Shown here in pieces: positions 46,528-59,600 of a DNA stretch of 64,000 nucleotides. The stretch is from Hirundichthys speculiger. Lineage: Eukaryota; Chordata; Actinopteri; Beloniformes; Exocoetidae. The stretch's first letter is position 1. Each line of letters opens with the position of its first letter. Both the position numbers and the translations under genes were made by a program. The notes beneath the pieces are model-generated. The model saw nothing but the letters and a program-made list of their open reading frames with translations. It ran no database searches and had not been told where the DNA came from. Location: NCBI GenBank assembly GCA_018398805.1, contig JAGFBZ010000003.1, positions 219,001-283,000 on the forward strand, in the 5' to 3' direction.

Positions 46528-49500
46528 CCTCCTGAAGCTGTCTCCTCGTTTTAGTGCGCTTCCCGTCTCCTCGTTTCAGTGCGCCTCCTGTCTCCTCGTT
46601 TCAGTCTGCTTCCTGTCTCCTCGTTTTAGTGCTCTTCCCGTCTCCTCGTTTCAGTGTGCTTCCCGTCTCCTCGTTTCAGTGCGCTTCCCGTCTCCTCGTT
46701 TCAGTGTGCTTCCCGTCTCCTCGTTTCAGTGCGCTTCCCGTCTCCTCGTTTCAGTGCGCTTCCTGTCTCCTCGTTTCAGTGCGCTTCCCGTCTCCTCGTT
46801 TCAGTGCTCTTCCTGTTTCCTCGTTTCAGTGTGCCTCCTGTCTCCTCGTTTCAGTGCGCTTCCCGTCTCCTCGTTTCAGTGCGCTTCCCGTCTCCTCGTT
46901 TTAGTGCGCTTCCCGTCTCCTAATTTCAGTGCGCTTCCTGTCTCCTCGTTTTAGTGCGCTTCCCGTCTCCTCGTTTCCGTGCGCTTCCCGTCTCCTCATT
47001 TTAGTGCGCTTCCCGTCTCCTAATTTCAGTGCGCTTCCTGTCTCCTCGTTTTAGTGCGCTTCCCGTCTCCTCGTTTTAGTGCGCTTCCCGTCTCCTAATT
47101 TCAGTGCGCTTCCCGTCTCCTCGTTTTAGTGCGCTTCCCGTCTCCTAATTTCAGTGCGCTTCCTGTCTCCTCGTTTTAGTGCGCTTCCCGTCTCCTATTT
47201 CAGTGCGCTTCCTGTGTCCTCGTTTTAGTGCGCTTCCCGTCTCCTCGTTTTAGTGCGCTTCCCGTCTCCTAATTTCAGTGTGCTTCCTGTCTCCTCGTTT
47301 TAGTGCGCTTCCCGTCTCCTCGTTTTAGTGCGCTTCCCGTCTCCTAATTTCAGTGTGCTTCCTGTCTCCTCGTTTTAGTGCGCTTCCCGTCTCCTCGTTT
47401 CAGTGCGCTTCCCGTCTCCTAATTTCAGTGCGCTTCCCGTCTCCTCGTTTCAGTGTGCTTCCCGTCTCCTAATTTCAGTGTGCTTCCTGTCTCCTCATTT
47501 TAGTGCGCTTCCCGTCTCCTCGTTTCAGTGCACTTCCCGTCTCCTAATTTCAGTGCGCTTCCCGTCTCCTCGTTTTAGTGCGCTTCCTGTCTCCTAGTTT
47601 CAGTGCGCTTCCCGTCTCCTCAGTTTCAGTGCGCTTCCCGTCTCCTAGTTTCAGTGCGCTTCCCGTCTCCTAATTTCAGTGCGCTTCCTGTCTCCTAGTT
47701 TTAGTGCGCTTCCCGTCTCCTCGTTTCAGTGCGCTTCCTGTCTCCTAATTTCAGTGCGCTTCCTGTCTCCTCGTTTCAGTGCGCTTCCCGTCTCCTCGTT
47801 TCAGTGCGCTTCCCGTCTCCTAATTTCAGTGCGCTTCCTGTCTCCTAGTTTTAGTGCGCTTCCCGTCTCCTCGTTTCAGTGCGCTTCCCGTCTCCTCGTT
47901 TCAGTGCGCTTCCCGTCTCCTAATTTCAGTGCGCTTCCCGTCTCCTAATTTCAGTGCGCTTCCCGTCTCCTCGTTCAGTGCGCTTCCCGTCTCCTCTTTC
48001 AGTGCGCTTCCCTCGTTTCTCCTCGTTTCAGTGCGCTTCCCGTCTCCTCGTTTCAGTGCGCTTTCCCGTCTCCTCGTTTCAGTGCGCCTCCCGTCTCCTC
48101 GTTTCAGTGCGCTTCCCGTTTCTCCTCGTTTCAGTGCGCTTCCGTTCCCTCGTTTCAGTGCGCTCCCGTCCTCCTCGTTTCCGTCGTCTCCTCGTTTCAG
48201 TGCGCTTCCCGTTCCTCCTCGTTTCAGTGCGCTTCCCGTTTCCTCGTTTCAGTGCGCTTCCCGTCTCTCGTTTTCAGTGCGCTCCCGTCCTCCTATTTCA
48301 GTGCGCTTCCTGTCTCCTCGTTTCAGTGCGCTTCCCGTCTCCTCGTTTCAGTGCTCTTCCTGTTTCCTCGTTTCAGTGTGCCTCCTGTCTCCTCGTTTCA
48401 GTGCGCTTCCCGTCTCCTCGTTTCAGTGCGCTTCCCGTCTCCTCGTTTTAGTGCGCTTCCCGTCTCCTAATTTCAGTGCGCTTCCTGTCTCCTCGTTTTA
48501 GTGCGCTTCCCGTCTCCTCGTTTCCGTGCGCTTCCCGTCTCCTCGTTTTAGTGCGCTTCCCGTCTCCTAATTTCAGTGCGCTTCCTGTCTCCTCGTTTTA
48601 GTGCGCTTCCCGTCTCCTCGTTTCAGTGCGCTTCCCGTCTCCTCGTTTTAGTGCGCTTCCCGTCTCCTAATTTCGTGCGCTTCCTGTCTCCTCGTTTAGT
48701 GCGCTTCCCGTCTCCTCGTTTCAGTGCGCTTCCCGTCTCCTCGTTTCAGTGTGCTTCCTGTCTCCTCGTTTTAGTGCGCTTCCCGTCTCCTCGTTTCAGT
48801 GTGCTTCCCGTCTCCTCGTTTCAGTGCGCTTCCTGTCTCCTCGTTTCAGTGCGCTTCCTGTCTCCTCGTTTCAGTGCGCTTCCCGTCTCCTCGTTTCAGT
48901 GCGCTTCCCGTCTCCTCGTTTCAGTGCGCTTCCCGTCTCCTCGTTTCAGTGCGCTTCCCGTCTCCTCGTTTCAGTGCGCTTCCCGTCTCCTCGTTTCAGT
49001 GCGCTTCCCGTCTCCTCATTTCAGTGCGCTTCCCGTCTCCTCGTTTCAGTGCGCTTTCCCGTCTCCTCGTTACAGTGCGCTTCCCGTTTCGTTTCAGTGT
49101 GCTTCCCGTCTCCTCGTTTCAGTGTGCTTCCCGTCTCCTCGTTTCAGTGCTCTTCCTGTCTCCTCGTTTCAGTGCGCTTCCTGTCTCCTCGTTTCAGTTT
49201 GCTTCCTGTCTCCTCGTTTCAGTGTGCTTCCCGTCTCCTCGTTTCAGTGCTCTTCCTGTCTCCTCGTTTCAGTGCGCTTCCTGTCTCCTCGTTTCAGTGC
49301 GCTTCCCGTCTCCTCGTTTCAGTGTGCTTCCCGTCTCCTCGTTTCAGTGCGCTTCCCGTCTCCTCGTTTTCAGTGCGCTTCCCGTTCTCCTCGTTTCAGT
49401 GCGCTTCCCGTTCCCGTTCAGTGCGCTTCCTGTCTCCTCGTTTCAGTGTGCTTCCCGTCTCCTCGTTTCAGTGTGCTTCCTTTCTCCTCGTTTCAGTGTG

Positions 49501-56600: not shown

Positions 56601-59600
56601 TCTGTAGCAGACTGGACCTACTTTATACTTGATTTCAGAACCAGTAGCGTGAAGGTCGGTCACCCAGGACGTTACGTTAGACTAAACCCGACTGTTTTAA
56701 TAATGAGGTGAACCGGTCCTACAGGTGCGCCGGCAGCACATGGACCGCTGCAGCAACTTCCTGGTGGAGGAGTTGGGGGTGGTGGACCGAGGCCAGGCTG
56801 GAGACCGCATCTTCTTCGTCTCCGCTAAAGAGGTCCTGCAGGCGCGAGTGCAGAAGGCTCAGGGGATGCCTGAAGCAGGTGGGCGTGGTTAACCTGAAGC
56901 AGGTGGGCGTGGTTAACCTGAAGCAGGTGGGCGTGGTTAACCTGAAGCAGGTGGGGGCGGTTAACTTGAAGCAGGTGGGGGCGGTTTACCTGGAGCAGGT
57001 GGGGCGGTTTACCTGGAGCAGGTGGGGGGGGGTTTACCTGGAGCAGGTGGGGGCGGTTTACCTGAAGCAGGTGGGGGGGTTTACCTGAAGCAGATGGGCG
57101 TGGTTAACCTGAAGCAGGTGGGGGGGGGGGGGGGGTTTACCTGAAGCGGGGGGGGGGGGGGGGGGTTTACTGGTGGGGGGTTACCTGAAGCAGGTGGGGG
57201 GCGTTAACCTGAAGCAGGTGGGGGGGGGGGGGGGGGGGGTTTACCTGAAGCAGGTGGGGGCGGTTTACCTGAAGCAGGTGGGGGGGGTTTACCTGAAGCA
57301 GGTGGGGGCGGTTAACCTGAAGCAGGTGGGGGGGGGGGGGGGGTTTACCTGAAGCAGGTGGGGGGCGGTTAACCTGAAGCAGGTGGGCGTGGTTGACCTG
57401 AAGCAGGTGGGGGGGTTTACCTGAAGCAGGTGGGGGGGGGCGGTTTACCTGAAGCAGATGGGCGTGGTTAACCTGAAGCAGTGTGGGGGGGGGGGGGGGG
57501 GGGGTTTACCTGAAGCAGGTGGGGGTGGTTTACCTGAAGCAGTTGGGGGTTTACCTGAAGCAGGTGGGGGGGTTTAACCTGAAGCAGGTGGGGGGGGGGG
57601 GGGGGGGTTACCTGAAGCAGGTGGGGGGCGGTTTCCCTGAAGCAGGTGGGGGCGGTTTTACCTGAAGCAGGTGGGCGTGGTTAACCTGAAGCGGTGGGCG
57701 TGGTTAACCTGAAGCAGGTGGGGGGGGGGGGGGGTTTACCTGAAGCAGGTGGGGGGTGGGGGGTTTACCTGAAGCAGGTGGGGGGCGGTTTACCTGAAGC
57801 AGGTGGGGGCGGGTTTAACCTGAAGCAGGTGGGCATGGTTAACCTGAAGCAGGTGGGCGTGGTTAACCTGAAGCAGGTGGGGGGGGGGGGGGGTTACCTG
57901 AAAAAGGTGGGGGTGGTTTACCTGAAGCAGGTGGGGGCGGTTTACCTGAAGCAGGTGGGGGCGGTTTAACCTGAAGCAGGTGGGCGTGGTTAACCTGAAG
58001 CAGGTGGGCGTGGTTAACCTGAAGCAGGTGGGGGGGGGGTTTACCTGAAGCAGGTGGGGGGGGGGGGTTTACCTGAAGCAGGTGGGGGTGGTTTACCTGA
58101 AGCAGGTGGGCGTGGTTAACCTGAAGCAGGTGGGCGTGGTTAACCTGAGCAGGTGGGGGGGGGGTTAACCTGAAGCAGGTGGGGGGGGGGGGTTTACCTG
58201 AAGCAGGTGGGGGTGGTTTACCTGAAGCAGGTGGGGGCGGTTTACCTGAAGCAGGTGGGGGCGGTTTACCTGGAGCAGGTGGGCGTGGTCTGCCTGAAGC
58301 AGGTGGGGGGTGGTTTACCTGAAGCAGATGGGGGGTGGGTTACCTGAAGCAGGTGGGGGGCGGTTTACCTGAAGCAGATGGGCGTGGTTTCCATCTGTGG
58401 GTGTGTCCAGAACCATCCAGAAGGTTCTGGACAGTTCCAGGTGCTGCTGATGGAGCGGCTGTCAGCAGACCTGCAGACCTCTTTAAAAGCAGGTGTTTGC
58501 TGGTCTGCAGCGTTCAGGTGTGTGCAAACACAATGCCAGGAGGGTATGATATCAGCAGTGGTCTCAGAGAACAATCTGGAAGGAGTTAGAAACTGTTCTG
58601 AAGTATGTGGAGCAAACGTTACTGAGAGGAAAGATTCAGGAGCGTCTGCTTCACAGCTGATCAGAACCAGAATGTTCTGGAGGTCTGTGGGTCCAGAAGC
58701 TCATCAGTGGTTCTACAGAACCTCCTTGTAAATCAACAGTGTTCTGGATGAAGGTCTGAGATGTTTCTCCTTCGTTACCTGTTCCAGGTGGAGCTCTGGC
58801 TGAGGGCTTTCAGGCCAGGATGTTTGAGTTCCAGAACTTTGAGAGACGATTTGAAGTAAGAAGCTTTTGTATTTTATTTTGTATTTTGAACCTGAATTCA
58901 TGACTCACTCATTTAAATTTAAATTAATTAATAAGAACAGTAGAAATGTTCAGAGGGTATAAATGATTGTTTATTTGAGTTTTATTTTCATTGATCTCTG
59001 ACAAGGTTTTTCTTTAAAAAGATTTAAAGCTGTTTTTAATTCAATTCAGTTTTATTTGTATAGCGTCTGTTACCATGACAACTGTCTCCAGGTCTTTACA
59101 GAGACCCAGATCATGTCCCCCGAGACGATATTATTAACTAAAATTATAATATTTAATCCTAATCAATAATAATAGCTACTAACCAGAGTTGCCAGAGGTG
59201 ATCTTAGCTTGGCTACTGCTGCTGGGTTGAGATCCATCAGTCCGAAGCGTCAAAAACACGACACTCGTTAGCATGTTGTGTGTTCAAATGTTTCTGCGTG
59301 TTAGCCGTGTTCCCTCCCGACGCTGTTATCTCCACTTTACAATGACTGCTAGTTGCCTTGTTGCCATCTTTCTTTGGTGAAGTGAAGCCAAACTTTGGAG
59401 CGTTTGAACCTGGTGGGCGCCATTGTTGTTTACAACTGCAATGCTAACGTGCTAAACCGACGTAACTTAATCACGTAAGTGCTTTCTGGAATTGACTGTG
59501 AGGAACTTGCGTAAATCACGAGAGATTCGTGCTGGTTGGAATCGACAAGAGAATCGCTGGATAAACTGACAAACGATTCCATGGAATTGAAACACACGGA

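Follow-up and report, generated by a model that had tools for sequence, protein, structure and literature searches.

The window analysed here, 64,000 nucleotides of Hirundichthys speculiger (assembly GCA_018398805.1, contig JAGFBZ010000003.1, positions 219,001 to 283,000), carries on its plus strand twelve modelled coding exons of the mitofusin gene mfn2, three of which are overlapped at one edge by a tandem array whose repeat unit includes the splice junction (a presumed one at exon 1). The exons have GT/AG flanks and clean reading frames, and join into a single open frame of 499 residues. The gene identity proposed in the sequence-only reading, an earlier inspection of the letters without database searches, is confirmed by a match to human MFN2 (E 2.4e-222, query residues 22-415) that is continuous through the joins of exons 4 and 5 and of exons 7 and 8. 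Additional 3' exons are located in locus L039 of a 214-kb stretch that includes the window (C3:119001-333000, formed by loci L044-L053, the window and loci L039-L043); two joined segments there match the Pfam family Fzo_mitofusin. The arrays, delimited with Tandem Repeats Finder (TRF), and the exons they meet are as follows (a slash marks the junction).

46540 to 50440, plus strand: 25-bp array, unit GTCTCCTCGTTTCAG/TGCGCTTCCC, 156.7 copies (TRF), the last copy giving the start-codon exon its presumed acceptor
50438 to 50619, plus strand: mfn2 coding exon 1 (gene model), ATG at 50442, 5' edge placed from the AG at 50436-50437
54062 to 56074, plus strand: 34-bp array, unit ...CTCCCTCTAG/CCCCGGCTCTGAC, 58.7 copies (TRF, edge 56068), running into the acceptor of exon 5
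56075 to 56183, plus strand: mfn2 coding exon 5, opening with CCCTGGCATTGAT (gene model and human MFN2 match)
56725 to 56878, plus strand: mfn2 coding exon 7, closing with CCTGAAGCAG (gene model and human MFN2 match)
56869 to 58390, plus strand: 24-bp array, unit CCTGAAGCAG/GTGGGGGTGGTTTA, 60.0 copies (TRF 24-bp record), spanning the donor of exon 7

All three arrays abut their exons, the gaps between TRF edge and exon edge being -3 bp at exon 1, 6 bp at exon 5 and -10 bp at exon 7. The proposal that three mfn2 arrays overlap exon edges with junction-carrying units thus stands, although with unequal strength. It is firm at exon 7, where the last ten exon bases, ending at position 56878, are identical to the start of the unit (10/10). 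It is well supported at exon 5, where the TRF boundary lies six intron bases before the exon start and the unit continues in phase past that boundary with 12 matches in 19 bp, more than at any other of the 164 array edges in the 214-kb stretch (mean 5.2, standard deviation 2.2, second best 11); of the 13 exon bases that follow the junction, 9 agree with the unit (gapped shuffle P 0.05). At exon 1 the overlap is minimal, since the array reaches TTTCAG/TGCCATG and the exon side of the presumed acceptor contributes only the three bases TGC. We rejected a longer match between the 25-bp unit and exon 1, since it was no better than that of shuffled units (P 0.31).

By hand computation, the 25-bp array fills 3898 of the 4677 bp of its intron (counted from a putative noncoding-exon donor at 45760, predicted from sequence), the 34-bp array 2007 of 2120 bp and the 24-bp array 1512 of 1909 bp. 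In all, six arrays 100 bp or longer lie in the introns of the modelled part of the gene, and the three that leave the exons free are listed below. After subtraction of the arrays, the six introns retain cores of 113, 90, 779, 434, 1087 and 397 bp.

50791 to 51970, plus strand: 11-bp array in intron 1 (TRF), off the junction, 171 bp from the donor
53440 to 53567, plus strand: 20-bp array in intron 2 (TRF), stopping 17 bp short of the exon 3 acceptor, non-spanning
56199 to 56383, plus strand: 34-bp array in intron 5 (TRF), beginning 15 bp past the exon 5 donor, non-spanning

The copies of a splice site inside an array differ in what their use would do to the message. The 25-bp array contains 148 TTTYAG sites and not one ATG in 3914 bp, so that its inner acceptors would merely extend the 5' untranslated region. 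Among 38 inner acceptors of the exon 5 array (CTAG, GCAG or GTAG before CCC) none has an open frame into the exon, and a message reading through the donor of exon 7 runs into a stop codon within the first unit; the exon-proximal sites must therefore normally be used at these two exons, if protein is made.

A further question is whether arrays at exon edges persist only when each unit keeps a working site, the spare sites buffering splicing against mutation. Such a selective filter would fit the near-complete retention of AG in the 25-bp array (A in 153 and G in 156 of 157 copies) and of GT in the 24-bp array (G in 58 and T in 59 of 62 copies). However, just 41 of the 59 copies in the 34-bp array retain the G of AG, which ranks there with the most variable positions, and several positions outside the splice site are preserved equally well or better in the other two arrays, so that no constraint specific to the splice site is visible. 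Selection on the inner AG and GT is thus not supported by per-position conservation among copies, and we regard a filter of this kind as improbable.

The same copies bear on the integrity of the assembly, in which array lengths or edges might be wrong. In the 24-bp array the G runs vary in length from copy to copy, and irregular units form a patch near 47970-48330 in the 25-bp array, both of which resemble consensus errors; two locus pairs on different contigs (L036/L037 and L059/L060) are 92-96% identical. Against this, the variant copies of the 25-bp array are ordered and in recurring blocks, the exon frames are clean, and exon bases inside repeat units are hardly expected from an artefact, which makes an assembly origin of the pattern very improbable. 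Of the nine 25-bp copies nearest the exon, eight are identical and one is a close variant, which suggests that this array grew recently at its exon-proximal end. The two locus pairs are in themselves retained haplotypes or recent duplicates, and because of them a second mfn2 allele may exist in the assembly. Among the matches listed for a query with intron DNA of mfn2 (40 of 5526 candidates scored), those besides the locus itself all fall within query positions 636-1668 and are dominated by a repeat family.

Tandem repeats make up 54.7% of the 214-kb stretch, far above the other loci read (3.7% in total over 38 loci, 37 on other contigs and one in the window), and 82 arrays of at least 100 bp occur on it. 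Exons were computed there by a codon-usage scan with scoring of splice signals, and the junction set (82 junctions) consists of those of the twelve modelled mfn2 exons and of 30 segments picked by hand from the scan rows; rows that were of low complexity, reverse-transcriptase-like, antisense, without a pair of splice sites or otherwise judged unsupported were left out. Arrays, each collapsed to one unit, were then placed at random relative to these junctions under two nulls. In the barred null, arrays could reach no more than 12 bp into an exon and only TRF edges were counted, whereas in the unbarred null exons were not excluded and the exon 5 array was taken as spanning. The five 3' mfn2 segments were classed as other in the former and as mfn2 in the latter (24 versus 34 mfn2 junctions).

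The sequence-only reading had judged chance placement of three minisatellites on junctions unlikely, a claim that is not upheld once array density is taken into account. Under the barred null 0.93 overlaps are expected and two are observed by TRF edges (P 0.23), or three if exon 5 is counted by homology (Poisson P 0.07); under the unbarred null three are observed against 2.33 expected (P 0.41 with a shortest array of 100 bp; 0.52 at 60 bp and 0.30 at 200 bp, the expectation ranging from 1.9 to 2.7). An excess of overlaps over chance is not established. In proximity, five junctions lie within 10 bp of an array under the barred null, against 1.66 expected (P 0.024), and the unbarred null gives eight within 20 bp against 4.9 (P 0.11; 0.13 and 0.38 with shortest arrays of 60 and 200 bp).

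In our judgement the probable explanation is that arrays were seeded by chance over junctions in a repeat-rich stretch and tolerated since the exon-proximal site survives. Short tandem duplications would arise at more or less random places, some of the seeds overlapping an exon edge; the outermost copy would retain an intact splice site beside the exon, the mRNA could remain unchanged, and for that reason, it is proposed, the allele with the duplicated junction would not be purged. The array would then expand intron-ward by slippage or unequal exchange, every unit bearing a copy of the splice site. Tolerance of junction-spanning duplications, one of two possibilities raised by the sequence-only reading, may well apply and is plausible. 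Chance seeding is supported by the density of arrays, by overlaps close to expectation, by their absence from the 48 non-mfn2 junctions, by the scatter of array edges and by near misses in neighbouring genes. Near junctions, array edges fall anywhere from 10-13 bases inside an exon to 17 outside, and these offsets look like a continuum.

Several results weigh against chance seeding, and the verdict turns on the choice of null. Under the barred null, eight junctions of the 214-kb stretch have an array no more than 20 bp away, against 2.39 expected (P 0.0025), as do 5 of the 24 junctions of mfn2 exons 1-12 (P 0.0005). With the 3' exons included, 5 of 34 mfn2 junctions lie within 20 bp (unbarred null, P 0.048; 0.09 and 0.24 with shortest arrays of 60 and 200 bp). 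All three overlaps of the stretch are in mfn2, for which the overlap P is 0.0022 (Poisson), or 0.07, 0.10 and 0.04 for shortest arrays of 100, 60 and 200 bp (unbarred null). When the arrays are re-placed within their own mfn2 introns, three of six overlap an exon (P 0.010; two of six by TRF edges only, P 0.10), three of six lie within 10 bp (P 0.05) and five of six within 20 bp (P 0.0012), the overlaps and the 20-bp count of this test being an excess in favour of the sequence-only reading. Clustering in this gene is suggestive, yet the test is post hoc: these P values overstate the surprise because the gene was chosen for showing the pattern, and landing near a junction is easy in two of its introns, whose cores without the array measure only 113 and 90 bp.

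The near-junction excess in mfn2 would also follow if splice junctions were favoured starting points of duplication, through transcription-linked breaks, for example, or through pyrimidine-rich or G-rich tracts that slip or fold. That both acceptors and a donor are hit and that two units are pyrimidine-rich and one G-rich would accord with such a preference, but the offset to the junction is not fixed and no excess is seen at the 48 junctions outside mfn2 (0 overlaps against 1.4 expected; three within 20 bp against 2.9, unbarred null). Across 120,214 bases from 50 kinase loci, 115 computed junctions were compared with arrays of at least 40 bp; none has one within 20 bp, and the closest approach is 26 bp. 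These junctions derive from 66 computed segments, not each confirmed as kinase exons, after sites below the score cut-off were dropped. The kinase sample indicates that arrays at junctions are not common across the genome; it has low power and says little against preferred seeding because only 12 arrays of at least 40 bp are present. The suggestion that splice-site sequence promotes duplication thus gains no independent support from either set of junctions, and we consider preferred seeding unlikely. If it were true, splicing signals would be tied to the birth of tandem repeats, which the current data do not demand. A broader version, in which exon edges genome-wide would be hot spots of minisatellite birth and introns would lengthen inward from their junctions, mfn2 being the extreme case, seems to us doubtful as well.

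Neighbouring genes on the 214-kb stretch provide the near misses. Of seven translations checked against Pfam, some from joined exons, five match a family (zf-C2HC, ASXH, C2H2, aldo/keto reductase and mitofusin), exons being still readable despite the repeats; a segment near 207813 has no Pfam match, and the check covered neither of the segments near 83678 and 84009. A computed exon that together with the next one matches ASXH is followed, 4 bp beyond its donor, by a 131-bp array (21- and 38-bp records) within which CAG/GTGAGG occurs, and farther on by a 30-bp array of 76 copies that reads alike. At an exon matching zf-C2HC an array lies 10 bp beyond the donor, and elsewhere an unconfirmed acceptor lies 15 bp from an array. 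Going by these Pfam domains, we take the first of these exons to be ASXL-like and the second MYT1-like.

A direct precedent is the variable number tandem repeat (VNTR) in intron 18 of human ABCA7, a 25-bp repeat that lies directly beside exon 18 and takes in its donor; measured alleles have about 12 to 427 units, and one isoform retains one unit via an intronic donor (PMC5954066). The three junction arrays of mfn2 likewise abut an exon whose splice site is part of the unit (a presumed acceptor at exon 1). In contrast, the ABCA7 repeat, as described there, concerns a single donor in one gene with a unit starting at GT itself, whereas mfn2 has two acceptors and one donor affected and exon bases within the units of exons 7 and 5. 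New relative to that account is the involvement of three junctions within a single gene, of which two are acceptors. In the potato RdRp gene an intron is reported to have been gained by tandem genomic duplication (PMC4974935); tandem duplication affects intron structure in both cases, but the potato intron is, to judge by the title, a new one, while those of mfn2 appear lengthened. Introns 1 and 3 of Sparus aurata GH, mentioned in PMC3045353, hold minisatellites as the mfn2 introns hold tandem repeats; variation in repeat number is a feature of the Sparus aurata gene, and the portion of that account at hand is silent on splice sites in the units, which those of mfn2 carry. No survey of junction-spanning tandem repeats was recognised among the literature matches listed. 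Growth of the kind proposed for mfn2 would offer a simple path by which introns lengthen from their edges with the protein unchanged, leaving dozens of spare splice sites, and ABCA7 indicates that such arrays can accompany altered splicing and disease risk (PMC5954066).

Two further repeats occur in the window. At 59172-59682 lies a high-copy interspersed repeat, present in at least 39 other places at 95-97% identity among the matches listed, which ends in a 17-bp minisatellite (59598-59660); a similar array is found at 59994-60038 (TRF), and several places, on C839, C558, C278 and C2417, show many further matches to the minisatellite end. The repeat looks as if it were a mobile element carrying an expandable minisatellite. 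Between 6491 and 12231, pairs of AGAACCC-type and TCCTGGT-type minisatellites follow one another at intervals of 1.2-1.3 kb (starting points 6491, 7810, 9038, 10265 and 11498; TRF), and this region is a higher-order tandem repeat made of the two.

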